Assembly (NCBI GenBank): GCA_028288485.1
Contig: JAQBNO010000124.1
Span: 1 to 64,000, forward strand
Direction: 5' to 3'
Length of the DNA: 64,000 bases
DNA from: Segetibacter sp.
Lineage (GTDB): Bacteria; Bacteroidota; Bacteroidia; Chitinophagales; Chitinophagaceae
Of the stretch, positions 31,656-64,000 are shown piece after piece. The notes under the pieces are model-generated. The model saw only the letters and a list, made by a program, of their open reading frames with translations. It was not told where the DNA came from and did no database searches. How positions within the stretch are numbered: position 1 is the first letter of the stretch; the number at the start of each line of letters is the position of its first letter. Position numbers and translations under genes: made by a program.

Positions 31656-32468
31656 ATGTTTAAAAAGTTAGAAGAAAACCTGTTTACTATTAAAAAAATT
31701 TACAAAGACAATGTCGCGGGTTTATTGGGTAGTGTTGTTTTCCTCTGCTTTTTTGGTTCCTGTATTCCTGCAAAAAACCTGAAGTATTTTAGTAATTTAC
31801 CTGATTCATCTGTAGTTCATCTTCCTGAAATAGAAAAGCCGCAGGCTGTAATTATGCCCGATGATATCTTAGAAATAAAAATAGCCGGTGCTAATGAAAC
31901 TACTACAGCTTTGTTAAATACTTATTCTACTACACCTAATTCTGCAACTTCCTCGTCTGGTGGTAGTGGCTATCTTGTCGATAATAATGGTGACGTTGAA
32001 TTCCCGATAATCGGAAAAGTAAGGGCTGCTGGTCTTACAAAAGAAGAATTTAAGGATAGGTTAAAGGAAAAAGTCGCGAAATATTTAAAAGATCCTTTAG
32101 TTTCAGTAAGATTTACAAATTTCAGGTTTACTGTTTTGGGAGAGGTTAAGGTACCAGGTAGTTTCTTAGTTCCAAATGAAAAGGTCACGGTGTTAGAAGC
32201 ATTAGGACACAGCGGCGATATGACTAACTATAGCCGTCGTACTAACGTGCGGGTAATCAGGGACAGTAGTGGCGTTCGGGAAATAGGAACTTTAGACTTT
32301 ACCAATAAGAACGTTTTTACTTCCAGGTATTACTATTTGGAAAGAAATGATGTGGTTTATGTTGAGGCTGAAAAGTCAAAAAGCCAGTTTGAAGATTTTT
32401 CCCGTATTTCAACCATCCTGGCAACTGTTGCCAGTTTGATTGCGATTACTATAACAATTTTAAAATAA
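31656..32468 (+). CDS. Polysaccharide export outer-membrane lipoprotein (Wza-like)
   Basis: 270 aa. The N-terminal segment GLLGSVVFLCFFGSC ends at a probable lipidated Cys36. The Poly_export domain (MPDDILEIKIAGANETTTAL, DNNGDVEFPIIGKVRAAGLT) is followed by one SLBB-like unit (FTVLGEVKVPGSFLVPNEKV, VTVLEALGHSGDMTN) and a C-terminal hydrophobic helix (ILATVASLIAITITILK) that would cross the outer membrane. It is shorter than E. coli Wza (about 380 aa) and typical of the BexD/CtrA-type proteins in Bacteroidetes. First gene of the locus; the Wzc-like kinase follows after 39 nt and would dock onto it to form the export channel. Confidence 0.92.
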   Translation: MFKKLEENLFTIKKIYKDNVAGLLGSVVFLCFFGSCIPAKNLKYFSNLPDSSVVHLPEIEKPQAVIMPDDILEIKIAGANETTTALLNTYSTTPNSATSSSGGSGYLVDNNGDVEFPIIGKVRAAGLTKEEFKDRLKEKVAKYLKDPLVSVRFTNFRFTVLGEVKVPGSFLVPNEKVTVLEALGHSGDMTNYSRRTNVRVIRDSSGVREIGTLDFTNKNVFTSRYYYLERNDVVYVEAEKSKSQFEDFSRISTILATVASLIAITITILK

Positions 32469-32507
32469 GTTTGCGTAAGGAAACTTTCAACTTCTTAATT
32501 TAATAAA

Positions 32508-34910
32508 ATGAGTTACCCGGTAAATGCCTCAGAAAATGAATTTTCAACCCCGGCAAACACCCAGTTTGACATAAAAAAATTCATATACAAGATCATCGGG
32601 GTATTGCCATGGTTCATAGTCAGCATTCTTCTTTGTATTATAGCATCTAAAATTTACCTAAGGTATACAATGCCGGTGAGTAAAATTTCGGCTTTCCTAC
32701 TCATAAAGAGCACCGACGATGGGGGGAACTCCGATTACAAGACTCTAAAGGAGATGGGCGTTTTAACGCAGAATAGTGATGTCGAGAATGAAATGGATAT
32801 TATCAGGTCTTATTCTTTGATGAGAAGGGTGGTTGACTCGCTGCATCTGAATGTAAATATATATAAAGAGGGAAGGGTTACAGCTTCACCAATTTATGGA
32901 GATAAATCACCTGTTTATATAAAGGTGGTTGAAGAAGACCCGGATGCAAAACCGAGCGGTTTTAAAATTAATATATCAGAAAAAAACTTTACTATCAATA
33001 ACGGTGGCTCGGCCAATACTTTCGAATTTGACCAGGTTATTAAGACTGAATTTGGAAAGTTGGTGATTACCAGGAATCCCAACGTAAAAATTGATCCCAA
33101 TGGTTATAGAATATTTTTTACCGATAAAGAACAGGAAACAAAAAAATATAAAGGAGCGGTAGATGTAAGGCTAACACACGACATGGGTGGTATAATTGAA
33201 ATATCAATGCTCGATGAGATACCGGAACGTGCTATAATGATTGTGAACAAGCTGATTGATGTTTACAACGGTGCTGGCCTTGATGATAAAAACATCGCGA
33301 GCATTCGAACTATTAGCTTTTTGAATGGAAGAATTGACACCGTAGCCCGCGAGTTAAATCGAGTTGAGTTGAATGCGCAGCAGTTTAAAACTACCAATAA
33401 AATAAATTCAATTTCGCAGGAAGCGAACTCATATTTGGGCCAGGCTGTAATTGTAGATAATAAGAAGGCAGAACAGGTGGCACAAATAAAGGTTTTAGAA
33501 TCTTTGGAGAACTATCTTACTGCTACTAAAGGCTCAGAAACTGAAGCTATACCGTCTGGTTTAGGCATTTCCGAGCCTACTTTACTTTCTTTAATTACAA
33601 CCCACAACACCTTAATCCAGGAAAAGCAAAGAATGGCTTTAAGAAGTACAGCCGCTGATCCTATTGTTGCCAATCTCACTGACCAGATAAAGGATATACG
33701 GGAAAATATGGTGCGAAACCTTCGCGTTCTTAAAAGCGGGTTCAATACCAATTTAAACCAGGTGCAAAGCACCTATGGAGATATAGAAAATAAGATTGCA
33801 GGATTACCAGGTAAGGAAAGGGAGTTGGTGAATATTTCAAGGGAAATGAATTTAAAAGAAACGCTGTATTTATACCTGTTACAAAAAAGGGAAGAATCGC
33901 AGCTTTCACTTGCCTCAAATATTAATAATACCCGTATCGTGGATAGTGCATTTAATACAGGAGTGGTTAGACCGGTAGGGGCGCAAATACAATTATTTGC
34001 CATTCTTATCGGATTAGCTATACCTACCCTGATACTAGTATTGAGAGATTTTTTCAATAATAAATTAAACGATCGTAAGGAAATAGAAGAGGGCACAACT
34101 GTTCCAATCTTAGGGGAACTTGCTCATGAAAAAAACAAAAAGAATATCGTAATCGACAATAAGAGTCGTACGCCTATATCAGAACAGTTCCGACTTATCC
34201 GTACTAACATCCAGTACATGGGGGCTGAAAAGTCGGTCAAGACAATTCTTGTCTCTTCCTTCATGAGTGGTGAGGGTAAAAGTTTCGTTTCGTTAAACCT
34301 GGCAAGTAGTATGGGAATTACGGGTGCCAAGACGGTGATTTTGGAGTTCGACCTTCGTAAACCGAAGTTGAGTAAATACCTTAATGTTCCGGGCGAGTAC
34401 GGAATTTCCAATTATATTATTAAAGACATTCCCGTTGAGAACATTATTCAAAAGGTTCCGGGCCATGAACACATTCACGTAATCAGTTCTGGTCCAATTC
34501 CTCCAAATCCTGCAGAGTTATTGTTAAGCTCGAAAACCGCCAGTTTAATGGAATACCTGCGTAACAATTTCGACGTAATCATTATTGATACTGCGCCTAT
34601 TGGGCTGGTAACTGATGCATTATTGTTAGAGAAGTATGCAGATCTTACCATGTTTATTGTTCGTCATAAATACTCTTCAAAAGCGGTAATTCCTTTTGTT
34701 GAAAAACTAAACAAAGAGAAGAAAATTAAAAGTCTTGCCCTGGTGGTGAACGGTATTAAGAATGATACTTCGTTCGGATACGGCTACGGCGGCTACGGCT
34801 ACGGTTATGGCTACGGATATGGCTATGGCTACGGTTATGGTTATTACATTCAGGAGAAAAAGAAAGGTTTCTTAGGAAACCTGTTGGGAGGATTTGGGAA
34901 GAAGGATTAA
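32508..34910 (+). CDS. Polysaccharide co-polymerase and BY-kinase (Wzc-like) with Gly-Tyr tail
   Basis: 800 aa. A Wzz-type N-terminal domain with membrane segments (IIGVLPWFIVSILLCIIASK and IQLFAILIGLAIPTLILVL) flanks a coiled-coil periplasmic part. The cytosolic BY-kinase domain has Walker A SGEGKS (587-592), Walker A' ILEFDLRKPK and Walker B VIIIDTAPIG. The C-terminal tyrosine cluster, autophosphorylated in known Wzc proteins to control chain length, is here a regular (GY)n tract with 12 tyrosines (DNA 34776-34847), followed by IQEKKKGFLGNLLGGFGKKD. It should set polymer length and energise export together with the Wza-like protein. UpxY follows after 95 nt. Confidence 0.95.
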   Translation: MSYPVNASENEFSTPANTQFDIKKFIYKIIGVLPWFIVSILLCIIASKIYLRYTMPVSKISAFLLIKSTDDGGNSDYKTLKEMGVLTQNSDVENEMDIIRSYSLMRRVVDSLHLNVNIYKEGRVTASPIYGDKSPVYIKVVEEDPDAKPSGFKINISEKNFTINNGGSANTFEFDQVIKTEFGKLVITRNPNVKIDPNGYRIFFTDKEQETKKYKGAVDVRLTHDMGGIIEISMLDEIPERAIMIVNKLIDVYNGAGLDDKNIASIRTISFLNGRIDTVARELNRVELNAQQFKTTNKINSISQEANSYLGQAVIVDNKKAEQVAQIKVLESLENYLTATKGSETEAIPSGLGISEPTLLSLITTHNTLIQEKQRMALRSTAADPIVANLTDQIKDIRENMVRNLRVLKSGFNTNLNQVQSTYGDIENKIAGLPGKERELVNISREMNLKETLYLYLLQKREESQLSLASNINNTRIVDSAFNTGVVRPVGAQIQLFAILIGLAIPTLILVLRDFFNNKLNDRKEIEEGTTVPILGELAHEKNKKNIVIDNKSRTPISEQFRLIRTNIQYMGAEKSVKTILVSSFMSGEGKSFVSLNLASSMGITGAKTVILEFDLRKPKLSKYLNVPGEYGISNYIIKDIPVENIIQKVPGHEHIHVISSGPIPPNPAELLLSSKTASLMEYLRNNFDVIIIDTAPIGLVTDALLLEKYADLTMFIVRHKYSSKAVIPFVEKLNKEKKIKSLALVVNGIKNDTSFGYGYGGYGYGYGYGYGYGYGYGYYIQEKKKGFLGNLLGGFGKKD
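34776..34847 (+). repeat. (GGNTAY)n hexanucleotide repeat encoding the Gly-Tyr tail of Wzc
   Basis: 24 codons, nearly all alternating Gly and Tyr (12 Tyr), with third-base variation among GGC/GGT/GGA and TAC/TAT. It is a coding microsatellite that could expand or contract in steps of two residues without a frameshift. Confidence 0.9.
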
Positions 34911-35005
34911 TTAACGTTTTACCACATATTTTTACAATTTGGTTATTCCTGCCTTATACATGGGAGTGAGGTGGCGAAGCTATAAGAATGATTGAATAGT
35001 TAACT

Positions 35006-35512
35006 ATGGAAAATGGTAAGAAATGGTTTGCCGCTTATACCAAACCAAGATGGGAAAAAAAAGTAAGCAGGGTATTAGAACAAAAGGGAGTTGAATGCTG
35101 GTGCCCGCTTAGAAAAATAGAAAAACAATGGAGCGATCGTAAAAAGATAATTGAGGAACCTTTATTTACCTCCTATGTGTTTGTTCGGGTAAATGATAGC
35201 GAAAGAACACAGGTTTTAATGACTGATGGAATATTGAATTTTGTATATTATGTTGGGAAGCCGGCTATAATAAGAGATGAGGAAATTGACATCATTAAAA
35301 AGTACCTTTCCGAGAAGGAAGCCTCCATATCAGTTCAATCATTAAACTCTTTAGACGAGAATACAAGAATTAAAGTTAACCACGGTGTTTTTATGGATAC
35401 TACGGGCACCGTACTAAAAGGCGGCAAGAAAAAAGTATTTGTTAAGTTAGAGAGCCTCGACCAGGTCATGATAGTCGAGTTCCCGGTTGAATATCTTTCA
35501 CCGCTTATTTAA
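35006..35512 (+). CDS. UpxY-type NusG-like transcription antiterminator
   Basis: 168 aa. The NGN domain is clear (KKWFAAYTKPRWEKKVSRVL, GVECWCPLRKIEKQWSDRKK, EPLFTSYVFVRV), followed by a KOW-like C-terminal domain (VNHGVFMDTTGTVLKGGKKK). In Bacteroides, UpxY proteins bind the polymerase at the leader of their own capsule operon and prevent early termination in long transcripts; here the target is inferred to be this locus. It is the third gene, after wza and wzc, not the first as in Bacteroides capsule operons. No UpxZ-like partner is seen. Confidence 0.9.
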   Translation: MENGKKWFAAYTKPRWEKKVSRVLEQKGVECWCPLRKIEKQWSDRKKIIEEPLFTSYVFVRVNDSERTQVLMTDGILNFVYYVGKPAIIRDEEIDIIKKYLSEKEASISVQSLNSLDENTRIKVNHGVFMDTTGTVLKGGKKKVFVKLESLDQVMIVEFPVEYLSPLI

Positions 35513-35533
35513 TTTTTGCATTAATCCATTTCT

Positions 35534-36532
35534 TTGAAAATTATTCTTATTGGCCTTGGTTCCATAGGGCTGAGGCATTTACGTAATATTCTTAGTTTAG
35601 GTTACAACCAGGTTTCGATAGTCAGTCGTTCCGGTAATTTACCTGAAGAATTTTCTTTCCTGCCCGTATTTTCTTCCCTGCATTCTGCATTATCCTCCTC
35701 CCGTTTTGATGCTGCAATTGTTTGCACGCCAACTTCGTTACATATTTCTCCTGTCAAAGCCTTGCTTGAGGCTCGAATTCCTAACATTTACATCGAAAAG
35801 CCTGTCAGTCATTCCTTAGTTGGAATTGACGAAATATTGTTATTGTCAAAATCTTATTCCAATACAGTGGTTGTTGGATACGATTTGCATTTTGATCCAG
35901 GCTTACAAAAAGTAAAGCAGTTACTTGACGAAGATGTAATAGGTAAAATTGTATCAGTTAATGCGGTCGTAGGCCAATATTTGCCGGATTGGCGACCTCA
36001 CCAGGATTACCGCGCTGGCATGAGTGCAAAGAAAGAAACAGGAGGTGGAGTTATGCTCGACCTTGTGCATGAATTTGATTATTTATTGTGGCTGGTTGGT
36101 AAAGTAAGCAATATAGCTTGCCAGTACAGCCACTCAGGAGCATTGGAGATCGAAACTGAAGACGTGTCGGATGTACTTCTCCGTTTTAATAATGGCGCAA
36201 CCGGAACCATTCATTTAGACTACCTGCAGCAGAAACTGGTGAGGAATTGCATGATAACCGGCTATAATGGAACCCTTTTCTGGAACCTTGCTGAAAGCAA
36301 TGTCAGGTGGATTAACAAAGAAAAAACGGAAGAAACCTTTACTTATTCCGGATACGAACGAAACAGCAGGTTTATAGAAATTATGCGGTCTTTTTTAGAA
36401 AACAGAACCGATCCTCGTTTAACCGGGCTAAACGAAGGAATTGAAAGCCTTAAACTTGTTCTTGCTGCGAAGTATTCGGCAGAAAATTCGGTTTTTGTGA
36501 ACCTTGATTCATTTCAACCCCTACTTAATTAA
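35534..36532 (+). CDS. Gfo/Idh/MocA family oxidoreductase
   Basis: 332 aa starting at a TTG (35534); the Rossmann motif GLGSIGLRHLRNIL begins at residue 7, so no later start is possible. Other family features are AAIVCTPTSLH, the catalytic EKP motif (YIEKPVSHSL) and the GGGVMLDLVHEFDYLLWL substrate-domain segment with a conserved Asp/His. It would oxidise or reduce a sugar hydroxyl with NAD(P). It heads the CMP-nonulosonate genes, 21 nt after upxY and 2 nt before the cytidylyltransferase, so it probably modifies a nonulosonate precursor or a linked amino sugar. Exact substrate unknown. Confidence 0.9.
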   Translation: MKIILIGLGSIGLRHLRNILSLGYNQVSIVSRSGNLPEEFSFLPVFSSLHSALSSSRFDAAIVCTPTSLHISPVKALLEARIPNIYIEKPVSHSLVGIDEILLLSKSYSNTVVVGYDLHFDPGLQKVKQLLDEDVIGKIVSVNAVVGQYLPDWRPHQDYRAGMSAKKETGGGVMLDLVHEFDYLLWLVGKVSNIACQYSHSGALEIETEDVSDVLLRFNNGATGTIHLDYLQQKLVRNCMITGYNGTLFWNLAESNVRWINKEKTEETFTYSGYERNSRFIEIMRSFLENRTDPRLTGLNEGIESLKLVLAAKYSAENSVFVNLDSFQPLLN

Positions 36533-36534
36533 AA

Positions 36535-37227
36535 ATGATATTAGCAACCATTTGTTGCCGCGGCGGGTCAAAAGGTGTACCTGGAAAAAATATTAAAAAT
36601 TTAAAAGGCAAACCATTAATTGCATACACCATTGAATCTGCAAAGGGTTCTGCACTAATCAAAGACTTAATAATATCTACAGACGATTATACGATAGCGG
36701 AAGTTGCCAAACAATTTGGTGCTTCCGTTCCGTTCATGCGCCCTGTTGATCTCGCAAGTGATACAGCTTCAAAATGGCCTGTGTTTATTCATGCTGTGGA
36801 AGAGTATGAAAAACTTACAGGCAACGCTGTTGATTATCTGGTCGATCTTGATGTTACAGTGCCATTAAAAACATCTGCAGATATAGATGGAGCCATACAA
36901 ATGGCACTCAATGATCCCGGAACCGATGTGGTTATCACTGGTTACGAGCCCGAGCGTAATCCTTACTTCAATATGATGGAAGTTAAGGAAAACGGGTTTG
37001 CCGAAATTGTAAAAAAAGGAGAGCGGCCAATTGTACGACGTCAGGATGCTCCGGCGGTGTACAGTTTAACACCCGCCGCTTATGTAGTCAAAAAAAGTGC
37101 GTTATACGAGTTCGAACACTGGAGTAAAGCGAAATGCAAAATCTTTCCGATTCCGCGTGAAAGGGCGGTGGATATAGATACGGATATAGACTTTAAGATT
37201 GTTGAATTTTTAATGGATAACAAATGA
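36535..37227 (+). CDS. Acylneuraminate (CMP-nonulosonate) cytidylyltransferase
   Basis: 230 aa. The nucleotide-binding start CCRGGSKGVPGKNIKNLKGK, the IISTDDYTIAEVAKQFGA and VDLDVTVPLKTSADID segments and the C-terminal RAVDIDTDIDFKIVEFL (metal-binding Asp pair) match NeuA/LegF/PtmB. It transfers CMP from CTP to a nine-carbon 2-keto acid to give the donor sugar. Neighbours NeuB and NeuC types confirm the pathway. Which acid (N-acetylneuraminic, legionaminic or other) is not decided by sequence alone. The 3' end overlaps the SDR start by ATGA. Confidence 0.93.
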   Translation: MILATICCRGGSKGVPGKNIKNLKGKPLIAYTIESAKGSALIKDLIISTDDYTIAEVAKQFGASVPFMRPVDLASDTASKWPVFIHAVEEYEKLTGNAVDYLVDLDVTVPLKTSADIDGAIQMALNDPGTDVVITGYEPERNPYFNMMEVKENGFAEIVKKGERPIVRRQDAPAVYSLTPAAYVVKKSALYEFEHWSKAKCKIFPIPRERAVDIDTDIDFKIVEFLMDNK

Positions 37228-38024
37228 GCGAATTGAACTTATTCGATCTGACTGGAAAGGTAGCAATTGTAACAGGCGGCGGCGGCTTATTGGCGTCAGA
37301 ACACGCCATTGCGTTACACGCTCATGGAGCAAAGATTGTGCTTGCCGATTTCAACGTTGAAAAATGCGGGGCTGCAGTAGACGCATTGGTTAAAGAAGGT
37401 GTAAGCGTGACCGCCGGGTTTTGTGATGTAACAAAGAAAGAAAGCTGGGAAACATTATTAAACGAAGTAGTAAGTGAATTTGGAAGAGTAGATATTTTGG
37501 TTAATAATGCCGGTTTTACCAACCAGAGCAAATCTGCCAACTTCGACGCTTCGTTCGAGAATTTTCCTCTTGAAGACTGGAATGCCATTATGAATGTGAA
37601 CCTTACCGGGGCTTTTTTAGGATGCCAGGTAGTGGGCAAGCATATGCTTCAAAACGGCAAGGGTTCCATAATAAACATCGCTTCTCTTTATGGCGTTGTT
37701 AGCCCAAATCATAAAATTTATCCAGGTACAGGTATTTCTCAACCCGTTGCTTATAGTGTTAGCAAGCATGGAGTTGTCGCCCTCACAAAATACCTTGCAA
37801 CCTTATGGGCCGAAAAAGGCGTCAGGGTAAATGCTTTAACGCCCGGTGGTATTTTTAATGGTCACCAGGGCTTGTTCCTTGAGCGGTTTCAGCAGTTGAA
37901 TCCTATTGGAAGAATGAGCGATAAAACCGAGTTGCGAGGCGGAATTGTTTTCCTTGCCAGCGATGCAAGCAGTCATGTGGTTGGCCACAACCTGGTCATC
38001 GATGGCGGGTGGACGGCGTGGTAG
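37224..38024 (+). CDS. Short-chain dehydrogenase/reductase, PtmA-like
   Basis: 266 aa, classical SDR. NAD(P)-binding VTGGGGLLASEHAIALHAHG (a variant TGxxxGxG), DILVNNAGFTNQ, catalytic Ser in SIINIASLYG, then Tyr and Lys in YSVSKHGVVAL. The long insert VSPNHKIYPGTGISQPVAYS before the Tyr resembles PtmA-type proteins that sit in nonulosonate clusters. Start ATG overlaps the preceding stop (ATGA), so the two are translationally coupled. It probably acts with the Gfo/Idh enzyme on the same intermediate (inference). Confidence 0.9.
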   Translation: MSELNLFDLTGKVAIVTGGGGLLASEHAIALHAHGAKIVLADFNVEKCGAAVDALVKEGVSVTAGFCDVTKKESWETLLNEVVSEFGRVDILVNNAGFTNQSKSANFDASFENFPLEDWNAIMNVNLTGAFLGCQVVGKHMLQNGKGSIINIASLYGVVSPNHKIYPGTGISQPVAYSVSKHGVVALTKYLATLWAEKGVRVNALTPGGIFNGHQGLFLERFQQLNPIGRMSDKTELRGGIVFLASDASSHVVGHNLVIDGGWTAW

Positions 38025-38116
38025 GAAGTTGCTGTTACCAGTTCAAAGTTGCCGATTTCTAGTTGGTGATACAATCCAGTTTAGATCTTTTATAGCGGGA
38101 CGAACAGTATCATTTC

Positions 38117-38302: not shown

Positions 38303-38365
38303 ACCAGGTGAAAAACAAGAGCTGGTAACAAAAAAAAGAAAACTAAATAGCAGGAATTAGAAAAT

Positions 38366-39412
38366 ATGTCACACCCTTACTTCGAGATTGCGGGTAGAAA
38401 AATTGGTTACGAATACGAGCCATTGGTAATTGCTGAAATTGGTATTAATCATGAAGGATCTTTAGCTGTTGCAAAAGAAATGGCAGATGCTGCAAAAGCT
38501 GCCGGCATAGAAGTGGTAAAACACCAGACGCATATTGTAGAAGATGAAATGAGCAGTGCCGCAAAAAATACAATTCCTGGTAATGCAGACGTGAGCATAT
38601 ATGAGATCATGCGTCGTTGTTCGCTGAACGAGGAGGACGAACTGGAACTAAAAAATTATGTTGAAAGCCTGGGGATGATTTTCATTAGTACACCATTTAG
38701 CCGCGCTGCTGCCGATCGTTTACATAAATGGGATGTTCCGGCATATAAGATAGGATCGGGAGAATGTAATAATTACCCGCTGCTAAATCATATCGCTTCT
38801 TTTGGCAAGCCTGTCATTCTTAGCACCGGCATGAATACTATTGAAAGTATTGCCAAGGCGGTTGCAGTTTTTAATAAACACAATGTGCCGTTTGCCTTGT
38901 TGCATACGACCAATTTATATCCTACACCCAACCATCTCGTAAGGTTAGGCGCACTCACTGAAATTCAACATTCTTTTCCGGATGCTGTAGTTGGCTTAAG
39001 TGATCATACACTTTCGAACCACGCCTGTTTTGGAGCTGTTGCTTTAGGTGCTTCTGTCTTAGAAAGACATTTTACAGATAAAATGGACCGCCCGGGACCG
39101 GATATTATTTGTTCTATGGATTTGAAAGCAGCCAGTGAATTAATTGAAGGTTCAAAAATAATTGCGCTGCAGCGCGGGGGGCACAAGGGACCTGCAAACG
39201 AAGAGCAGGTAACAATTGATTTCGCATTTGCAACCATTTGCACCATTAAACCCATCAGGAAGGGAGATGTTTTTACAAAGGAAAATATTTGGGTAAAGCG
39301 ACCTGGAAAGGGTGGAATACTTGCTGAAGAATATGAAAATGTTTTAGGCAAAACAGCCGCGAAAGACATTGAGGTTGATTTGCAGGTAAATTATGAAGAC
39401 ATCGATCGTTAA
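38366..39412 (+). CDS. N-acetylneuraminate synthase family protein (NeuB/LegI-like)
   Basis: 348 aa. The NeuB TIM barrel shows [33 protein letters not shown] (catalytic Lys and phosphate contact region), [42 protein letters not shown] and [15 protein letters not shown]. The C-terminal SAF (antifreeze-like) domain starts near residue 285 ([20 protein letters not shown]). It condenses phosphoenolpyruvate with a C6 amino sugar to give a nonulosonic acid. Paired with a NeuC-type epimerase two genes later, the natural substrate would be ManNAc or a 2,4-diamino analogue. No dehydratase or aminotransferase for legionaminate is present. Confidence 0.93.
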
Positions 39413-39423
39413 AGCAGGCAATA

Positions 39424-40377
39424 ATGGTGATTTCTAAAATTTCGATGGGACTAGGTAACCAGATGTTTCAATATGCAGCAGGAAAGTCGCTTGCATTGCA
39501 TAAAAACGTTCCTTTTAAAGTAGAGGTTCATAGTTATAAAAGATATAAGGAACGGAAGTATGAATTAGACACTTTTTTTGCAATAGAGACAGAAAAAGCA
39601 ACTGAAGAGGAAATTAGAAAGTACCAGTTAAAACAACCTGTAAAGATTTTATGGAACAGCATATTTAGCAGAAATAAAATTCCCCTTTATAGTTTAGCCT
39701 ATGAGCAAGACCAATTGAAACGAATGGTTTTAAAGCTTTCTGAAGTAATAACTCCTTCTGCAAAGAAAAAAGTGTATCTCGAACCGGAGTACCATTTTAA
39801 TGATAGCTTTTTCAAAACCCCTGACGAGGTATTTCTGATAGGCTATTTCATGAGCTGGAAGTACTTTGAAAAGTTTGAGAAAGAAATCCGGCGGGATTTT
39901 ACAGTCAGGCCCGAACTGGTTTCCCATTTACACCAGATCGAAAGTGAACTTAGGCAAAACAATAGTGTAAGCATTCACATAAGAAGAGGCGACTTTACCA
40001 GCAAGAAAAATATAGAGATCCACGGTATTATATCCATGGAGTTTTATCGGAATGCAATTGCTGAAATAAGCAGCAGGAGTCCGTCTCCTCATTTATATGT
40101 TTTTTCGGATGATATAGCGTGGGTAAAAGAAAACCTGCAAACACAGTTTCCAATAACATTCGTAAGTAACGAAGTAACAAAAACAGCCGTAGAAGATTTT
40201 TATTTAATGAGCGTTTGTAAGCATAATATTATTGCGAACAGCACTTTTAGCTGGTGGGCTGCCTATTTAAATAACAACCCCGGCAAAATCGTGGTCGCGC
40301 CCAAAAAGTGGTATAATAGCTCAACATACAATTATAAAGATGTTTATCCCAGGCGTTGGATAGTTTTGGACAGTTAA
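39424..40377 (+). CDS. Alpha-1,2-fucosyltransferase family (GT11) glycosyltransferase
   Basis: 317 aa. GT11 motifs are all seen: SMGLGNQMFQYAAGKSLAL, GYFMSWKYFEKFEKEIRRDF, the GDP-fucose site VSIHIRRGDF and IIANSTFSWWAAYLNNNPGK. It should transfer L-fucose (or a related 6-deoxyhexose) from GDP-sugar in alpha-1,2 linkage. It lies inside the nonulosonate module, 11 nt after the neuB-like gene and 76 nt before neuC-like. GDP-fucose synthesis genes are not in the window and must lie elsewhere. Confidence 0.92.
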   Translation: MVISKISMGLGNQMFQYAAGKSLALHKNVPFKVEVHSYKRYKERKYELDTFFAIETEKATEEEIRKYQLKQPVKILWNSIFSRNKIPLYSLAYEQDQLKRMVLKLSEVITPSAKKKVYLEPEYHFNDSFFKTPDEVFLIGYFMSWKYFEKFEKEIRRDFTVRPELVSHLHQIESELRQNNSVSIHIRRGDFTSKKNIEIHGIISMEFYRNAIAEISSRSPSPHLYVFSDDIAWVKENLQTQFPITFVSNEVTKTAVEDFYLMSVCKHNIIANSTFSWWAAYLNNNPGKIVVAPKKWYNSSTYNYKDVYPRRWIVLDS

Positions 40378-40453
40378 GGGCAAGATGATTTGAAGGCAGG
40401 ACTTTATTACTGTATCACTTACAGGAACACCGTTAGGACAGGTTAATAGTAAA

Positions 40454-41599
40454 ATGACTTTAGCGAACAACATGCGAAAAATATCTTTTCTTACAGGAAC
40501 ACGTGCAGATTTTGGTAAACTGAAATCGCTGATTGAAGTACTTCGTTTAAATCCGTTGTTCGAGGTTCACATTTTTGCGACCGGTATGCATATGGATAAA
40601 AAATATGGATATACGGTGCATGAAATTGAGAAGTGTGGATACGAAAACGTGTTTAAATACATTAACCACCAGAGTTTATCTTCAATGTCGCTGGTGCTGG
40701 CGAGAACCATAGAAGGTTATTCAAATTATGTAGACGTTATTCAGCCAGATCTGATAGTTGTTCACGGCGACCGGGTTGAGGCATTAGCCGGCGCAACAGT
40801 TGGAGCTTTAAACAATACTCTGGTTGCCCATATTGAAGGTGGTGAACTTTCAGGCACTGTTGATGAATTGATCCGGCATGCAGTTTCCAAACTCAGTCAC
40901 ACCCATTTTGTAGCGAACGAAGAAGCAAAGAAAAGGCTTCAGCAAATGGGTGAAAAAAGTGAAAGTATTTTCGTCATTGGATCTCCTGACATGGATGCCA
41001 TGAAAAGCGATACACTACCGTCGTTAGAGGAAGTGAAAAAGTATTACGAAATTCCTTTTAAGAATTACGCGATCTCATTGTTTCACCCGGTAACTACCGA
41101 GTTCGATGAAATGGACGATTATGCTGAGCAGTATGTAAAAGCACTCGAAGAATCGGGATGCAATTACATCGTTATCTATCCGAATAACGACAACGGATCT
41201 GATTTTATACTGTCTAAGATCATGAGGTTAAAACACAAAAAGCGCTTCAGGGTTTTTCCTTCTGTGCGTTTTGAATCGTTTTTATCGATGATGGAAAATG
41301 CGCAATTCGTTGTTGGAAACTCAAGTGCAGGAATTCGTGAAGCTCCGTTTTATGGAGTGCCGACAGTTAATGTAGGCAGCCGGCAAAACGGAAGAACCCA
41401 AAACGGCGATATTATTCATACAGGTTACGAAAAAGAGGAGATTTTAGAAGGAATAGAAAAAGCCCTGCAACTAAAAGTGGCGCCGAGGAGTTTGTTTGGC
41501 GATGGCAATAGTGACGAATTATTTAATGACATTATTTCGGACGATAATTTTTGGAACACAGCCAAGCAGAAAACTTTTTCTGATGTTCTTGTCTTTTAA
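40454..41599 (+). CDS. UDP-N-acetylglucosamine 2-epimerase, hydrolysing (NeuC/LegG-like)
   Basis: 381 aa. The start could be ATG 40454 or ATG 40472 (MRKISFLTGTRADFGKL, which fits the family start better). NeuC-type features are TGTRADFGKLKSLIEVL, VVHGDRVEALAGA, AHIEGGELSGTVDELIRHAV (the hydrolysing-type EGGE/DE pair), VIGSPDMDAM and VGNSSAGIREAPFYGVPTVN. It converts UDP-GlcNAc, or a UDP-diNAc-bacillosamine, to the free 2-epimer used by NeuB. With NeuB and NeuA types it completes a minimal CMP-nonulosonate route. Confidence 0.93.
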   Translation: MTLANNMRKISFLTGTRADFGKLKSLIEVLRLNPLFEVHIFATGMHMDKKYGYTVHEIEKCGYENVFKYINHQSLSSMSLVLARTIEGYSNYVDVIQPDLIVVHGDRVEALAGATVGALNNTLVAHIEGGELSGTVDELIRHAVSKLSHTHFVANEEAKKRLQQMGEKSESIFVIGSPDMDAMKSDTLPSLEEVKKYYEIPFKNYAISLFHPVTTEFDEMDDYAEQYVKALEESGCNYIVIYPNNDNGSDFILSKIMRLKHKKRFRVFPSVRFESFLSMMENAQFVVGNSSAGIREAPFYGVPTVNVGSRQNGRTQNGDIIHTGYEKEEILEGIEKALQLKVAPRSLFGDGNSDELFNDIISDDNFWNTAKQKTFSDVLVF

Positions 41600-41712: not shown

Positions 41713-43500
41713 ATGAAGTTTAAAAATAGTTTTTGGGGTTATTTTCAGTTTTACTACAGTATAACGGGGAGAAGACTGGTATTCAGCTTTTCTATAGGAA
41801 TCCTGGTGAGTGTGTTAGATGGTATTAGCTTAGCTATGTTTATGCCTTTGCTTGAGGCGACCGGTGATGCCGCCGGCAATAACAGTCAACAGTCGTTGGG
41901 TCATCTTCATTATGTAACTGATTTTATCCAGGCACTTGGTTTTTCATTAACTACGGGTACGGTGCTGGGCATCATCGTTATAATTTTCATTGTTAAGGGT
42001 TTTTTTAAATTTATCCAGCTAAGCTACCAGGTGAATACCCGCCATTTATTTATGAAGCGGGTGCGAAACATGTTACTGAACAAACTCGAGGCCTTAAGCT
42101 ATAAGGGGTTTTTAAAGTTGGATTCGGGAAGAATACATAACACGTTAACGGGTGAGGTATCACGCCTCTTTTCAAGCATGAACTATTATTTTGACGCCGC
42201 CCAGGCGGCTGTAATGCTTGGTACCTATATCGTTCTTGCTTTCCTCGCAAATTTTCAGTTTGCTATACTCGTTGCAGTTGGTGCAGGCCTCTCCAATTTT
42301 CTATACCGGAAAATCTATACAACCTGCAAAAGAATTGCGATGGAAATTTCTCAGCAAGGCAACAGCTTCAACAGCTTTTTGGTTCAGGCGATTTATAACT
42401 ACAAGTACCTTAAAAGCACCAATTATTTAAGCAATTTCTCTAAAAAAATCAGGAAGGTAATCAGCGAAACAGAAATGCTGAACAGGAAGGTAGGCATTTA
42501 TAACGCTATAACAGCAAGTGTAAAAGAGCCGATAATCATGTTGATAGTTGTACTGGTTATCCAGGTGCAATTGCATTATTCAGGCGCTAATTTGACTTCA
42601 ATATTATTAAGCCTCTTATTGTTCTATAGATCGCTTAATTACCTCATGACCGTGCAAAGTTACTGGCAGTCATTCATCCAGGCTTCATCGGGTATAACCA
42701 CCGTTACTTCTATCATTAACGAAATGGAAATGAATAAAGAAGTAACTGCTTCTAATCCGTTTCATACTTTCCGCGATAAAATATCTATAAAAAATTTAGT
42801 CTTTTCATATGGTTCGAACAGGGTTTTAAACAATGTAAGTTTAGACATCCCCAAAAACAAAACGATCGCTTTTGTTGGCGAAAGCGGCTCGGGGAAAACA
42901 ACAATAGCAAACATTGTTTCAGGTCTGATACAACCTAATGAGGGTGAAATTTTAGTGGACAACTATCCCTTAAAAGATTACGACCTAAACAGCTACAGGA
43001 GTAAGATCGGTTATATTTCGCAGGAGCCGGTGATTTTCAACGACAACATTTTCAACAATATCACATTTTGGGACGAGCCGACTCCTGAAAATTTGAAGAA
43101 GTTCTGGGAGATCGTTGAACTGGCTTCGCTTACACAATTTATAAATGGTCTCGAAGACAAGGAATTAACTGCATTGGGAGACAATGGAACCTTGATCTCC
43201 GGAGGCCAGAAACAAAGGATTTCCATTGCCCGCGAATTGTATAAGAACGTTGAGATCCTTATATTAGATGAAGCTACATCTGCTTTAGATTCTGAAACCG
43301 AAAAGGTAATCCAGGACAACATCGATAAGTTGCATGGTACATATACCATCCTCATCATTGCTCACCGCCTGTCTACAATTAAAAAAGCCGATACCATTTA
43401 TTTATTAGATAAAGGGAACGTTCTCGAATACGGTGATTTTGAACAAATGCTGCAAACATCTAAAAGGTTTAAAAGAATGGTTGCTTTACAGGAAATGTAG
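41713..43500 (+). CDS. ABC transporter with fused membrane and ATPase domains (flippase-like)
   Basis: 595 aa. Transmembrane part about residues 20-310 with several helices (VFSFSIGILVSVLDGISLAM, IVVLVIQVQLHYSGANLTSI), then the ATPase: Walker A GESGSGKTTIA, Q-loop ISQEPVIFND, signature LISGGQKQRISIARE, Walker B ILILDEATSALD and H-loop IIAHRLST. The MsbA/PglK-type half transporter works as a homodimer. In a glycan locus with no Wzx it is the likely flippase for the lipid-linked repeat unit (inference). The motifs are intact. Confidence 0.92.
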   Translation: MKFKNSFWGYFQFYYSITGRRLVFSFSIGILVSVLDGISLAMFMPLLEATGDAAGNNSQQSLGHLHYVTDFIQALGFSLTTGTVLGIIVIIFIVKGFFKFIQLSYQVNTRHLFMKRVRNMLLNKLEALSYKGFLKLDSGRIHNTLTGEVSRLFSSMNYYFDAAQAAVMLGTYIVLAFLANFQFAILVAVGAGLSNFLYRKIYTTCKRIAMEISQQGNSFNSFLVQAIYNYKYLKSTNYLSNFSKKIRKVISETEMLNRKVGIYNAITASVKEPIIMLIVVLVIQVQLHYSGANLTSILLSLLLFYRSLNYLMTVQSYWQSFIQASSGITTVTSIINEMEMNKEVTASNPFHTFRDKISIKNLVFSYGSNRVLNNVSLDIPKNKTIAFVGESGSGKTTIANIVSGLIQPNEGEILVDNYPLKDYDLNSYRSKIGYISQEPVIFNDNIFNNITFWDEPTPENLKKFWEIVELASLTQFINGLEDKELTALGDNGTLISGGQKQRISIARELYKNVEILILDEATSALDSETEKVIQDNIDKLHGTYTILIIAHRLSTIKKADTIYLLDKGNVLEYGDFEQMLQTSKRFKRMVALQEM

Positions 43501-53740: not shown

Positions 53741-53796
53741 TATAAATGATTGCAGTAAAAGTTCATTTTGTGTGGTTTGGGGGCCGCCCCTAAGGT

Positions 53797-56570: not shown

Positions 56571-56576
56571 CATTAC

Positions 56577-57725
56577 ATGAACCTCGGAATTATTTCGGAT
56601 TGTATTCATTACAAAACCCCAGACGGAAGGATAGGCACAGAAAATCACATCCTGCTCAGGCAATTAGAAACGTTATGTTCGTTTTATACCGAAACACTCA
56701 TTTGTTGTCCTTTCGAACCATATGATGCTTCAAAAGTGATCTCTGTTTACACTAATGAAAAGATCCATTTTACTGCAGTTCCAAACGTAGGAGGTAATAC
56801 TTTTAAGGCCAAGCTAAAAATATTAACCGCATTTCCGAAATGGTTAAACGCTTTTAAGAAGATAGACCGCTTTAGCAATATTGTTTACCAGCGTTTTCCT
56901 AACAACTTAAATATTCCGGGGTTTTTCTTTTTCTGGCTGAAGAAAAAGAAGGTTTTTGCCACTTATACCGGAACCTGGAATAATACTAATCCTATAACTT
57001 ATGATCTTCAAAAGTGGCTGCTAAAGAAATACTTTAAAGGACCAGTGTGGGTTTATTCAAATGAACCTATAAAAAGCGAAAGAATATTTCCCGGGATTAG
57101 TCCTTCTTACAGTATTAACGTTTGGAATGAAGAAGAACTGCAGGTACAAAGGCGAATAGAGCGGATTGAAAAAGAAGGATTACCGGTTTTCAGGTTAATA
57201 ACGGTCGGCTCATTAATACATTATAAAAATCAGACAGGAATTGTAAAGTCTTGTTTAATTTTAAAAAATCAGAACTTTGCTTTTTCGTTAACCATTGTTG
57301 GCGACGGGCCTATGCGCGAAGAACTGGAAACGCTGATAGAAGAATGTGGATTACAGCAGGAAGTAAAAATGGTGGGTAAAAAGAACTTTACAGAATTAAG
57401 GGAGCTTTACCGGAACCATGATTTTGTAGTACAGGCACCCTTCCTGGAAGGATTTGGAAAAGTGCCGGTAGAAGGCTTTTTTCATGGAGTAATTCCTGTT
57501 ATCAACAATATTACTATGGCAGGTTATATGACCGGCGATGAGGAGAGGGGATTTTTATTCGATGCAACCGATGAAAACAATCTTGCGGAAACACTGCAGC
57601 GAATAAAAAAAAGCATCCATCAATTGCCGTGCATGATTATCAACGGTAGACAGTTTGCCAAAAAGCAAACACTGGAAGAGTGGGCACAGGATTATTATCA
57701 AACCGTAACGAATTATTTTGGCTAG
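56577..57725 (+). CDS. GT4-type glycosyltransferase
   Basis: 382 aa. N-terminus NLGIISDCIHYKTPDGRIGT, middle VFATYTGTWNNTNPITYDLQ, and donor half FRLITVGSLIHYKNQTGIVK, LTIVGDGPMREELETLIEE, then the E-x7-E-like FLEGFGKVPVEGFFHGVIPV. The C-terminal helix is normal. It starts 7 nt after the preceding gene and overlaps the next (57718) by 8 nt, so all three are translationally linked. Sugar unknown. Confidence 0.88.
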   Translation: MNLGIISDCIHYKTPDGRIGTENHILLRQLETLCSFYTETLICCPFEPYDASKVISVYTNEKIHFTAVPNVGGNTFKAKLKILTAFPKWLNAFKKIDRFSNIVYQRFPNNLNIPGFFFFWLKKKKVFATYTGTWNNTNPITYDLQKWLLKKYFKGPVWVYSNEPIKSERIFPGISPSYSINVWNEEELQVQRRIERIEKEGLPVFRLITVGSLIHYKNQTGIVKSCLILKNQNFAFSLTIVGDGPMREELETLIEECGLQQEVKMVGKKNFTELRELYRNHDFVVQAPFLEGFGKVPVEGFFHGVIPVINNITMAGYMTGDEERGFLFDATDENNLAETLQRIKKSIHQLPCMIINGRQFAKKQTLEEWAQDYYQTVTNYFG

Positions 57726-59061
57726 TACTACCATTTTTTTTAATATTGAGAAGCTGCACACAAGGTATATCCTGGCTTTCTTTATAGGATCTCTTGTGGG
57801 TTATAAGCTTATTCCAGTTCCCGTTGTAGCTATCGGTTACATCATTCTCGTTATAACCTGCATTTTCAAATGCGCAAAAGGCGATGTTGACGGATTTTTT
57901 TCTATAGTTCCCTATATAGTTTATACCGAAATCTTTATGAGGGCGTTTGCCCGCTGGATTCCTTACCTCGGCATAGCGTATTTGTTTATTACTTGTTTTA
58001 GCATCCTTCTGTTTACTACCCGGCGATTGAAAAGGCCGCATACCAATGCAGTGATCTTTTTGATCATGTATACCTTTCTTGAAATTGTTAATAATATATA
58101 TCCGGCTAAGCCGGCAATTACACGACCAATAATAATTCAGTCACTTGGTTTATTGATGCCGGTAGTGTGGGCATCTTACAATGCATTGAAACCGGTAACT
58201 ATAAACAGGCTGCTTAACAATGTTAAGGTCGCTTCCGTTTACCTGGCAGGGATCGTTTTCGTTGCCCATATGACCGGTAAAATAAATTACGGGATGTTTT
58301 CCAATTCTGATTCCAGCAATGGGTTAGCACCGGTTCAATTAAGCGGGTACCTCGGTTTTGGCTGTATATTATTTTTTCTTTCTATCATGAACCCCGAGGA
58401 GTTGGCAAAAAGGGTATTGAATATTACTGTTTTATCTGTTACAGCAACCGTTATGTTGCTTACTTTTTCTCGCGGAGGATTGTATTTTTTGGGTGCTGAA
58501 GTGGCTATTTTCCTGCTCTTTAACAGGGCCAAGTTAGGCAACTATGCAAAGTTGTTGGTTCTTGTTCCGATTGGACTTGGCATTTATGGATATGTGGTAA
58601 CTCAAACGGGTGGAAAAATTGTAGAGCGATATGAACAGAAAGGAACCAGTAACCGCGACGTTTTGGTAAATATTGGCTTTAGGATTTTCGAAAAACACAT
58701 GCTTTTTGGGGTAGGAACAGGCAATTATAATACAACGATTGTTAAGGAGAAATTATTTAAAGAAGAATCCGGAGCACATAACGAATATGTAAGGGCGGCT
58801 GCCGAGCACGGTATTTTTGGAATATTCTTTTACTGGGGTTTTCATGTCTTTCTTTTCATGGAAATCTGGGCGAGGCGAGAGCCGCAGAGGCAATACGCAA
58901 TTTACTTTCTATTGTTGTTTTTCCTAATCATCGTGCACAATGGTTTGAAAATTGGTATTCAGCCGTTACTTATTATGTTGGCAGTAGGAACTCCTTCATT
59001 ACTTTACAAGATCCCTAAAAATGCTTACGATAAAGAACTCCAGGAAACAAGAGTTGCCTGA
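57718..59061 (+). CDS. O-antigen ligase/polymerase family membrane protein (Wzy_C)
   Basis: 447 aa. TTG start at 57718, overlapping the preceding gene by 8 nt. About ten transmembrane helices are seen (LAFFIGSLVGYKLIPVPVVA, VVAIGYIILVITCIFK, YLGFGCILFFLSI, LLVLVPIGLGIYGYVV, YAIYFLLLFFLIIVHNGL). The Wzy_C signature is TFSRGGLYFLGAEVAIFLLF with the large periplasmic loop ending in ESGAHNEYVRAAAEHGIFG. It would polymerise lipid-linked repeat units, or ligate them, in the periplasm. The adjoining Wza, Wzc and flippase genes favour polymerase. Confidence 0.88.
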   Translation: MASTTIFFNIEKLHTRYILAFFIGSLVGYKLIPVPVVAIGYIILVITCIFKCAKGDVDGFFSIVPYIVYTEIFMRAFARWIPYLGIAYLFITCFSILLFTTRRLKRPHTNAVIFLIMYTFLEIVNNIYPAKPAITRPIIIQSLGLLMPVVWASYNALKPVTINRLLNNVKVASVYLAGIVFVAHMTGKINYGMFSNSDSSNGLAPVQLSGYLGFGCILFFLSIMNPEELAKRVLNITVLSVTATVMLLTFSRGGLYFLGAEVAIFLLFNRAKLGNYAKLLVLVPIGLGIYGYVVTQTGGKIVERYEQKGTSNRDVLVNIGFRIFEKHMLFGVGTGNYNTTIVKEKLFKEESGAHNEYVRAAAEHGIFGIFFYWGFHVFLFMEIWARREPQRQYAIYFLLLFFLIIVHNGLKIGIQPLLIMLAVGTPSLLYKIPKNAYDKELQETRVA

Positions 59062-59680: not shown

Positions 59681-59734
59681 GAATATGAAATGAAAAGATG
59701 GTTGGACCATCCTTATTCCTTCTTTCTACATTGT

Positions 59735-59750
59735 CCCCGCCGTGGCGGGG
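59735..59750. repeat. Short perfect palindrome CCCCGCC-GT-GGCGGGG
   Basis: 7-bp perfect inverted arms around GT with no following T-run on either strand, so it is probably a REP-like unit and not a terminator. A related CCCGCCACGGCG lies at 16629. Confidence 0.45.
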
Positions 59751-59809
59751 CTTACTTCTACGCTTAGTTTTCTATTCAGCTTTTTTCGCGTTTGCAGTAG
59801 AGCTTGCAG

Positions 59810-61231: not shown

Positions 61232-61441
61232 TTGTTTGTATCAATATTGTATTCCCCGGGGTGAAACGAGAAAAGCTGGTTCCTGCTTAAGCGATTTCAC
61301 ATTTGTGATTGCACGCCCGACCTTTGACGTTAAAAATTTAATGTTCGACCTGTAACGACTGACCTTCGACGTTTCACCTAACGGCAACTCCCAATACCTT
61401 TCGGTTATCTCGGTACACGTTGTTGCAAAAAGATTTGCCGA

Positions 61442-61481
61442 CGAACGGATTGCGACGCAACTATGACCCTACGAAAATCAT
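61442..61481 (+). repeat. Dispersed repeat, GAACGGAT-TGCGACGCAAC form
   Basis: GAACGGATTGCGACGCAAC then TATGACCC. The first 19 bases are identical to the copy at 5584. The gap 61232-61567 also holds GACCTTTGACGTT/GTAACGACTGACC words (similar GTTGAC words flank 11940 and 15190) and no gene. Confidence 0.7.
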
Positions 61482-61567
61482 CTGTTGGTATTAAAAATTA
61501 GAAAATAATGCATTAATCCAATAACGCTAAAATCAGTAATCAGAATCTACTTCTAAACAACAAGCCT

Positions 61568-62614: not shown

Positions 62615-62634
62615 CTATAAAAAATATAAGATAG

Positions 62635-64000
62635 ATGTGCGGAATTTCGGGGGTGTTATATTTTGACAGGGATCGGGTAGTGGACCCGGAAAGGCTAAGA
62701 CGAATGCGTGACCGGTTAATTCATCGTGGTCCTGATTTTGGGAATTCTTATATAGATGGAAATATTGGTTTGGGTCACCGGAGGCTATCAATTATTGATT
62801 TATCTGCACAGGGTAACCAGCCGATGTACTCTGCCGACAAAAGATATATCATAGTCTACAACGGCGAAATTTATAACTTCCGGGAACTAAAAGTAGAACT
62901 GTTAAACCACGGCTACTCCTTTCACTCTTCCTGCGATACCGAAATACTGGTAAACCTTTACATTACCTACGGAAGCAGTATGCTCGACAAACTGAACGGC
63001 ATGTTTTCGTTTGCCATTTGGGATACCAAAGAAAGAGTTTTATTTGCGGCAAGGGATAGGGTGGGTATCAAACCTTTCTTTTACCTCCTGGATAACGAAC
63101 AGTTCCTTTTTTCTTCTGAACCGAAAGCAATATTCTCTTACGGTTATCCGTTGGCTTTAGAGTATGATAACCTGAACGAATTATTATTATACCGCTTTAC
63201 TGCAGGAGAAAATACAGTTTTTAAAGATATAAAAAGGTTACTGCCGGGTCATTCTATTACGGTTGAATCTTCAGGAAAGACAAAGATCAACAGGTGGTGG
63301 AAATTGGCGGATAAAATTGCAGGTCATGAGAAAATCAAGGATCCGTTGGGATGGTTTAAGGCAACCTTAGACAGTAGTATAAAAAACCATTTGATCAGCG
63401 ACGTACCGGTAGGCGTTTTGCTTAGCGGTGGTTTAGACTCAAGTTCAATTTGCGCATCTCTTTTTAAGCAGCAGATTAACGGGATCCAAACGTTTAATGT
63501 TGGATTTTCTAATGTTGAAGATGATGAATCGGCATTGGCAAGGCAAGTATCAAAAAGCTACGATTTCCCTTTCCACAGTATTAATGTGGAGGATGAGGAC
63601 CTTGAAGAAAACCTGGAACTCTCAAATTTCATTAATGATGAACCACCCGTTCATCAAAATGAAGCGCAGATAGTAGCAATATCGAGGTATGCAAAAAAGT
63701 ATATTACGGTAATCTTATCAGGAGAGGGGGCAGATGAGTTTTTAGGAGGCTATGTAAGATATAAGCCGATTAAATACCTGTCATATTCAAAGGGTGTAAA
63801 AAGGTTTTTAAAATTTTTACCCGACGGCCTGAAGACAAACCGGGTGATAAAATTAGAACGGTATTTTTCACTTCCTACTACTGACCTGATGTTAATGATG
63901 AATTCGGTGAATAATTTCCCGGAGGAGTTTGACCAAATCGGGATGCATTTAGGTGAGATCCATAATGATTACCGGAAAAAGATTTTGCAGGAGGCCAGGG
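62635..64000 (+). CDS. Second asparagine-synthase-like amidotransferase, 3' end off the window
   Basis: 455 codons from ATG 62635 are visible, open to the right edge. Cys2 is present (MCGISGVLYFDRDRVVDP), with HRGPDFGN, YNGEIYNFRELK, CDTEILVNLY and ARDRVGIKPFFY in the glutaminase half, and LLSGGLDSSSICA, VILSGEGADEFLGGYVRY in the synthetase half. It is a separate paralogue of the first copy (48874), more like the standard AsnB of surface-polysaccharide loci. The presence of two copies suggests more than one amidated residue, or that one acts elsewhere. Confidence 0.9.
   Translation, partial: MCGISGVLYFDRDRVVDPERLRRMRDRLIHRGPDFGNSYIDGNIGLGHRRLSIIDLSAQGNQPMYSADKRYIIVYNGEIYNFRELKVELLNHGYSFHSSCDTEILVNLYITYGSSMLDKLNGMFSFAIWDTKERVLFAARDRVGIKPFFYLLDNEQFLFSSEPKAIFSYGYPLALEYDNLNELLLYRFTAGENTVFKDIKRLLPGHSITVESSGKTKINRWWKLADKIAGHEKIKDPLGWFKATLDSSIKNHLISDVPVGVLLSGGLDSSSICASLFKQQINGIQTFNVGFSNVEDDESALARQVSKSYDFPFHSINVEDEDLEENLELSNFINDEPPVHQNEAQIVAISRYAKKYITVILSGEGADEFLGGYVRYKPIKYLSYSKGVKRFLKFLPDGLKTNRVIKLERYFSLPTTDLMLMMNSVNNFPEEFDQIGMHLGEIHNDYRKKILQEAR

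Follow-up and report, generated by a model that had tools for sequence, protein, structure and literature searches.

A putative C-8 epimerising gene cassette accompanies a sialic-type nonulosonate core in a Segetibacter capsule locus

A window of 64,000 nucleotides from Segetibacter sp. (C133:1-64000, the start of contig JAQBNO010000124.1, which runs to 102593 in a 6.4 Mb genome of 220 contigs) carries a capsule or exopolysaccharide (EPS) locus that includes five genes expected to build and activate a nonulosonic acid. Three of these genes encode a Gfo/Idh/MocA oxidoreductase (Gfo), a cytidine monophosphate (CMP)-nonulosonate synthetase and a short-chain dehydrogenase/reductase (SDR), and they recur as a cassette in other genomes. 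The remaining two encode NeuB and NeuC proteins of the kind that produce N-acetylneuraminic acid (Neu5Ac). It is likely that the cassette alters the product of this sialic-type core. With confidence that stops just short of an even split, we further propose from sequence and from analogy with characterised clusters that a Neu5Ac-type pathway operates here and that the cassette epimerises its product at C-8.

A sequence-only reading of the window had grouped NeuA-, NeuB- and NeuC-type genes with a Gfo/Idh enzyme and a PtmA-like SDR, and these open reading frames (ORFs) are indeed found in order between 35534 and 41599 on the forward strand. The cassette opens with a PtmF-like Gfo (35534..36532; PF01408/PF22725), continues with a LegF-like CMP-nonulosonate synthetase (36535..37227; PF02348) that shares a clade with Escherichia coli O61 LegF, and closes with a PtmA-like SDR (37224..38024; PF13561). 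The Gfo is 33% identical to its E. coli O61 counterpart and 29% to that of Rhizobium WL3, and the SDR is 45% identical to the Rhizobium WL3 protein and 31% to that of O61. The Gfo retains EKP and GGGVxxDLxHExDY motifs and the SDR retains YxxxK and S-[IL]-Y-G motifs, and the redox motifs checked in the cassette (EKP, YSVSK, IASLYG) are intact. The synthetase scores 147 bits with the PseF model, below its cut-off of 205.7. Searches of the PDB with Gfo and SDR recovered distant kin only, and none among the matches listed is named as a nonulosonate enzyme.

The core itself has good support from sequence as sialic-type, rather than as a producer of legionaminic acid (Leg) or pseudaminic acid (Pse), because NeuB (38366..39412, forward strand) shares 63% identity with SiaC (1xuu), the Neu5Ac synthase of meningococci, and falls inside the SiaC clade. 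This clade has an SH-like approximate likelihood ratio (SH-aLRT) support of 100 and holds 27 rows of a 69-row tree, none of which comes from a LegC locus. The scores of NeuB are 480.6 bits against SiaC, 149.8 against SpsE and 125.2 against a pseudaminate synthase. Its identity is 36% with K1 NeuB and 37%, 31% and 30% with the synthases encoded by three Leg-type clusters of E. coli, and it scores 206.9 with the PseI model, under the cut-off of 340.25. NeuC (40454..41599, forward strand) matches TIGR03568 with 419 bits (cut-off 235.9) and resides in a 21-row clade (SH-aLRT 100) that contains no LegB or LegC loci. Its function as a hydrolysing UDP-N-acetylglucosamine (UDP-GlcNAc) 2-epimerase is weakly anchored through this kind of sequence model; the best PDB match is an N,N'-diacetylbacillosamine epimerase, and K1 NeuC falls outside the NeuC clade on a long branch. 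Both trees are quick trees that carry SH-aLRT support only.

Searches of the whole genome agree with the sialic-type reading offered earlier, as does the grouping of NeuB with SiaC and away from Leg and Pse synthases. The best LegC score is 210.7 bits (cut-off 420) and the best PseC score is 277.5 bits (cut-off 423.5), and thus neither reaches its curated threshold, while the best LegB match in the genome is 31% identical with 94.9 bits. No full-length PtmE was found in the genome, where the matches are partial and lie within residues 106-343, or within 9-113, of the 349 residues. A LegC-class gene occurs in none of the 80 named NeuB relatives within the stretch covered, and a search of E. coli genomes for the neuB DNA of the window gave no match. 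A Leg or Pse pathway was rejected on the basis of the NeuB and NeuC clades and the whole-genome LegC, PseC and LegB searches. The dehydratase, aminotransferase and acetyltransferase that had been described as absent are indeed missing inside the window, but the contig continues with a dehydratase, two aminotransferases and an acyltransferase just past its edge, and so this absence is bounded by the window edge.

The two oxidoreductases had been regarded as accessory and their combination with the core as odd. This description does not survive comparison with other genomes, where Gfo-CMP-SDR is a recurrent three-gene cassette that replaces the ordinary CMP synthetase. A scan of genome contigs for NeuB relatives gave 336 matches, of which the best 80 were taken as named loci. 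The order Gfo-CMP-SDR-NeuB is present in 13 of the 80 and is therefore not due to chance; NeuC is also within the stretch in 11 of these 13. Twelve of the 13 have no PtmE, LegB or LegC in the covered stretch, and the other, L042, has PtmE and LegB. Neither Gfo nor SDR is found in 66 of the 80 loci, mostly from Flavobacterium, of which 62 carry another CMP synthetase in the stretch and four have none there. The stretch of L106 begins at the CMP gene, and the position for Gfo is out of view.

Within the same family, the CMP gene was detected at E <= 1e-60 in 18 of 294 genomes, counting that of the window. Gfo and SDR both flank it in 15 of the 18, Gfo alone lies within 1.5 kb in L207, and the pair is missing in the two genomes with the most diverged synthetases (52-54%), one of which (L213) has a partial, 27% identical Gfo-like ORF downstream. 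At the level of the phylum, 44 of 395 genomes have a CMP homologue at 1e-30, and 40 stretches were compared; three of the 44 hit genomes (G226, G252 and G141) were left out. Both Gfo and SDR are present in 11 of the 40, including Leg loci (for example L147, L161, L163 and L166), loci with LegB but not LegC, and others, while many Leg loci among these stretches have neither gene. The cassette is found with three types of core, namely Leg, LegB-without-LegC and Neu.

Several individual loci deserve mention here. L145 (G126), from the same family, has the order UpxY-CMP-NeuB-NeuC with no Gfo or SDR, and provides a natural minus-cassette comparison. LegC matches occur in 22 E. coli genomes, of which four were examined, and in strain ECZP248 the cassette SDR is annotated as two short overlapping ORFs (L190:15220-15983); this gene is probably broken. 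Four loci (L042, L144, L155 and L174) carry LegB without LegC in the stretch covered, with a NeuB in the SiaC clade and a NeuC in a different clade. They also encode PtmE, an NAD-dependent epimerase-family protein and the cassette (in L042 at 7477-15110), and their sequences predict a 9-deoxy, 7-hydroxy nonulosonate, a product that we presume to be similar to a fusaminic-acid-like structure.

Phylogenetic analysis indicates that the synthetase follows the cassette rather than the core. The CMP tree has 72 rows, 30 of them with Gfo and SDR nearby. Of the 80 named loci, 20 entered this tree and 21 entered the NeuB tree, with most Flavobacterium loci left out, and to these were added proteins of usable length from the 40 phylum stretches. 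For CMP proteins longer than 300 amino acids only the first 235 residues were used, and K1 NeuA was shortened to 230. Whether a named anchor has the cassette was decided manually from its annotation, and E. coli ECZP248 was scored as having the cassette despite its split SDR. The window synthetase belongs to a clade of 30 rows (support 100/99) in which 28 synthetases lie beside Gfo and SDR, versus two of the 42 rows outside it (L174 and L176). The two non-cassette rows inside the clade are L106, at a contig end, and L145. The E. coli O61 synthetase falls inside, whereas those of O161 and K1 fall outside, with K1 NeuA on a long branch, and the window enzyme groups neither with K1 NeuA nor with the Flavobacterium synthetases.

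The presence of the cassette requires five changes on the CMP tree, compared with a mean of 23.1 and a minimum of 16 after shuffling, bearing in mind that the shuffles ignore relatedness. Among 61 paired loci, the cassette changes five times on the CMP tree versus ten times on the NeuB tree, while for the type of core the NeuB tree needs one change and the CMP tree five. These counts lead us to conclude that the three genes have mostly travelled together and have been moved between cores. Gene content, order, phylogeny and co-segregation are what the data show. A single clade for all 30 cassette synthetases was also considered, and was rejected (approximately unbiased test, p-AU 9e-6).

A viral contig of 37,865 bases (L222/L258; IMGVR_UViG_3300000032_000113) carries Gfo, CMP, SDR, NeuB, two small ORFs and NeuC, in that order. 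A portal protein gene (phrog_156, 5e-32) directly follows this module, and head and tail genes lie beyond. The viral proteins are 38% (Gfo), 45% (CMP), 55% (SDR), 44% (NeuB) and 51% (NeuC) identical to those of the window, and all five match the window protein better than other members of the panel. In the trees, the viral CMP synthetase is placed among those of the window type (SH-aLRT 98, 18 rows) and the viral NeuB within the SiaC clade (SH-aLRT 100, 28 rows), where L155 is nearest. The 12.8 kb of L222 examined showed no LegB, LegC or PtmE. Because a tailed-phage contig carries the complete Gfo-CMP-SDR-NeuB-NeuC set, it supports the view that the five genes form one functional unit.

Searching a phage collection with the window CMP enzyme returned one Moritella record, and searching with the SDR returned 137 records; among the 30 matches listed, most look like generic SDRs or bacterial contigs. 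Putative viral contigs with a cassette-type SDR near CMP and NeuB genes are L225, L226, L227, L229, L230, L240, L244, L251/L255 and L253. By best match, L253 has the order NeuB-NeuC-PtmE-Gfo-CMP-SDR and L251 has the order Gfo-CMP-SDR-NeuC-LegC-PseB-NeuB.

The pathway we propose would begin as expected from the families and clades of the core enzymes, with NeuC converting UDP-GlcNAc to N-acetylmannosamine (ManNAc) and NeuB condensing ManNAc with phosphoenolpyruvate to give Neu5Ac. The three-gene cassette would then take the place of an ordinary NeuA. Its two oxidoreductases may oxidise a side-chain hydroxyl and then reduce it from the opposite face, most likely at C-8 by analogy with clusters for 8-epi-legionaminic acid (8-epiLeg), such that the acid is altered before or during activation. 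The cassette synthetase would add CMP to the altered acid, giving CMP-8-epi-Neu5Ac as the predicted product for transfer into the capsule or EPS. We infer the position of the reaction, the order of the steps, which enzyme oxidises and which reduces, and the product. The earlier suggestion of an unusual acid modified by the two dehydrogenases is also favoured in our analysis.

Comparison with known systems clarifies what is familiar and what is distinct in this arrangement. The window shares with the Neu5Ac modules of meningococci (SiaC) and E. coli K1 (neu) a SiaC-clade NeuB, a NeuC-type hydrolysing epimerase and activation with CMP, but it has no NeuA-type synthetase, and two oxidoreductases flank its cassette-clade CMP enzyme. 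The E. coli O61 cluster has an identical order of Gfo, cytidylyltransferase and SDR genes, and the O61 O antigen contains 8-epi-Leg5Ac7Ac (PMC3628348). The O61 cluster differs in also encoding a UDP-GlcNAc 4,6-dehydratase, LegC, an acetyltransferase, a PtmE-like nucleotidyltransferase and a Leg-clade synthase, where the window has a SiaC-type NeuB. The same three-gene block (PtmF-LegF-PtmA) is found in Rhizobium WL3, Azospirillum thermophilum and a Sphingomonadaceae plasmid, and is described for Plesiomonas (PMC4481668). The synthetase and SDR of the Rhizobium WL3 and Azospirillum Leg loci are 42-46% identical to those of the window, but the Rhizobium, Azospirillum and Sphingomonadaceae loci, all three on plasmids, differ in carrying LegB, LegC, an acetyltransferase and a nucleotidyltransferase.

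Sets of comparable description have been reported from Acinetobacter baumannii, where lgaABCDEFG predicts Leg and lgaABCDEF/elaABC predicts 8-epiLeg (PMC9676051), and where the 8-epiLeg locus of strain LAC-4 has two extra oxidoreductases reported to lack homologues in 20 other genomes (PMC4345345). Similarly, epaAB encodes a cytidylyltransferase-reductase and an SDR, and converts Pse to 8-epiPse as judged by nuclear magnetic resonance (PMC12053666). As in the window, these sets replace or add to a plain CMP synthetase, and lgaG is not listed beside elaABC. The likeness of elaABC and epaAB is by description only, and EpaA differs in having an aldo-keto reductase rather than a Gfo/Idh domain.

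A number of findings weigh against epimerisation at C-8 by a cassette that moves as a unit. Loci L174 and L176 carry the cassette with other synthetases, and L145 retains a related synthetase without Gfo and SDR. The SDR and Gfo trees leave the joining of the O61 and window groups at unresolved deep forks, with outgroups on long branches, and the window SDR, at 31% identity to that of O61, is nearer to PtmA-type SDRs of Rhizobium and Azospirillum (45-46%). Apart from the anomeric centre, C-4 and C-8 are the only positions at which the substrates of the Leg, LegB-without-LegC and Neu cores all bear a hydroxyl, and C-4 is therefore a possible position as well. The E. coli O161 cluster speaks for the C-8 reading, as its Leg gene set is comparable to that of O61 (a dehydratase, LegC, NeuB, NeuC, a PtmE-like nucleotidyltransferase and a synthetase) but has neither Gfo nor SDR, and we take it to make ordinary Leg, an assumption that a search of the open-access literature did not confirm, since it gave only PMC3628348, in which O161 does not feature. 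However, O161 and O61 differ beyond the cassette, since a FemA/B-type protein stands in place of the O61 acetyltransferase. Campylobacter jejuni has PtmF and PtmA homologues, which are placed in precursor supply, yet presumably makes ordinary Leg. Gfo and SDR are combined with PtmE in 11 loci, and PtmA has been assigned to the first, GDP-GlcNAc stage of the pathway (PMC4481668). In addition, EpaA was reported to have no significant identity to the Ela enzymes (PMC12053666).

Given these caveats, we considered other roles for the oxidoreductases. They may act on the Neu5Ac core at another position, by C-4 epimerisation, by C-7 epimerisation via an 8-ketone (a route by which acinetaminic acid could arise) or by leaving a keto sugar. 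A Gfo/Idh enzyme paired with an SDR is a general-purpose redox system, both 4-epi-Leg and acinetaminic acid exist, and a single SDR swap (aciB to aciE) yields the C-8 epimer of acinetaminic acid (PMC5595891). Nevertheless, the homologous E. coli O61 cassette accompanies an 8-epimer, and the 4-epiLeg isolates had no Leg genes according to the same report, so we regard this explanation as unlikely. It is improbable, too, that the synthetase makes plain CMP-Neu5Ac while Gfo and SDR serve another capsule sugar. Nothing beyond NeuB, NeuC and a CMP synthetase is needed to make CMP-Neu5Ac, these three occur in L145 without Gfo or SDR, and the 66 named loci with neither oxidoreductase point the same way. 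Set against this are the flanking of the synthetase by both genes in most same-family genomes that hold it, their association, in other phyla and in a phage, with synthetases of this clade, and the intact catalytic motifs that were checked in both proteins.

The genes past the window edge raise the question of a legionaminic-type acid made with the help of the dehydratase, aminotransferases and acyltransferase encoded there. These genes lie 0.5-9 kb beyond the edge on the same strand, and several of the 11 phylum stretches with Gfo and SDR carry LegC. The full set (64542-72961) comprises a second Gfo/Idh, a hexapeptide acyltransferase, two DegT aminotransferases, an initiating sugar transferase and a dehydratase, the last a 655-aa CapD/PglF-type protein. 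Both aminotransferases fall under the LegC and PseC cut-offs, as does the whole genome by a wide measure, and neither the NeuB and NeuC clades nor the 80 named relatives include LegC. The set would better suit an initiating sugar (PglC/PglF/PglE-like), and we consider the legionaminic explanation very improbable. We likewise judged it highly unlikely that Gfo and SDR act upstream, supplying glucosamine or a GDP-GlcNAc precursor in the manner of Campylobacter PtmF/PtmA, with which they are homologous. The first-stage assignment of PtmA (PMC4481668) and the 11 loci with all three genes favour such a role. However, PtmE occurs without Gfo in 17 loci, and Gfo and SDR occur without PtmE in 14 (window included), a distribution that fits only in part and instead suggests a role for the pair at the CMP end. 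Moreover, the genome yielded no full-length PtmE, and both oxidoreductase genes adjoin that of the CMP synthetase.

Taken to its full extent, C-8 epimerisation would make the cassette a portable plug-in for Neu, Leg and 9-deoxy cores with an epimer-specialised synthetase, which on a true sialic core would enable environmental Bacteroidota and a tailed phage to make CMP-8-epi-Neu5Ac (an L-glycero isomer of sialic acid). We put forward this broader proposal as a possibility whose chances we rate somewhat below even. The names 8-epi-Neu5Ac, 8-epi-N-acetylneuraminic, 8-epi-sialic or 8-epineuraminic acid and 8-epi-KDN do not occur in the open-access collection searched, outside which most subscription papers lie. 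If the proposal is true, nature makes a stereoisomer of sialic acid so far undescribed in the literature searched, and the three genes could guide both the prediction and the synthesis of 8-epimers built on several nonulosonate cores. The upstream role assigned to PtmF and PtmA would also gain an alternative that can be tested. Judging from the phage copy, sialic-type sugar modules can be phage-borne, like the prophage-borne epaAB for Pse.

The capsule/EPS locus extends from 31656 to about 73.7 kb of the contig, approximately 9.7 kb beyond the right edge of the window. It begins on the forward strand with an ORF named as a Wza-type polysaccharide export protein (31656..32468) from its sequence and its position ahead of Wzc, for which no NCBIfam match was found at 1e-20. 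A Wzc-type chain-length tyrosine kinase follows (32508..34910, forward strand; GNVR domain PF13807, with the remainder from sequence reading), and then, ahead of the module, a UpxY-family transcription antiterminator (35006..35512, forward strand; NF033644, 141.9 bits, cut-off 100). Downstream of NeuC on the same strand are an ABC transporter that is an MsbA/PglK-like flippase candidate (41713..43500; PF00664+PF00005) and a BFO_1060/CDP-glycerol-transferase-like glycosyltransferase (43598..45010; PF04464; NF046086, 46.6 bits, under the cut-off of 200). A homologue of the latter is present in 70 of the 80 named NeuB loci, and it is a candidate nonulosonate transferase. A Wzy/O-antigen-ligase-type polymerase is encoded at 57718..59061 on the forward strand (PF04932).

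GT11, CapK and two amidotransferases had been taken to predict a decorated acid, and these genes proved uninformative in this respect. The GT11-family glycosyltransferase gene (39424..40377, forward strand; PF01531, 131.8 bits) adjoins NeuB in some relatives only. An asparagine-synthase-type amidotransferase was confirmed at 48874-50724, and the second, which starts at 62635 and extends past the window end, is known from sequence reading only. The 'CapK' gene (59804-61231) gave no Pfam match at 1e-6, and its NCBIfam matches, to AMP-dependent CoA-ligase (PaaK-like), are below cut-off.

The genome also contains two further NeuB-family genes. One, on contig C209 (L006:8324-11185), is part of a compact NeuB-NeuC-CMP set with a NeuB from another clade, no Gfo or Leg genes beside it and an unrelated SDR upstream. 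The other, on contig C95 (L008:13694-19762), lies in an unusual sugar cluster, where its neighbours, with roles assigned by sequence reading, are HAD-like, thiamine diphosphate (ThDP)-enzyme-like and RfbH/DegT-like ORFs.

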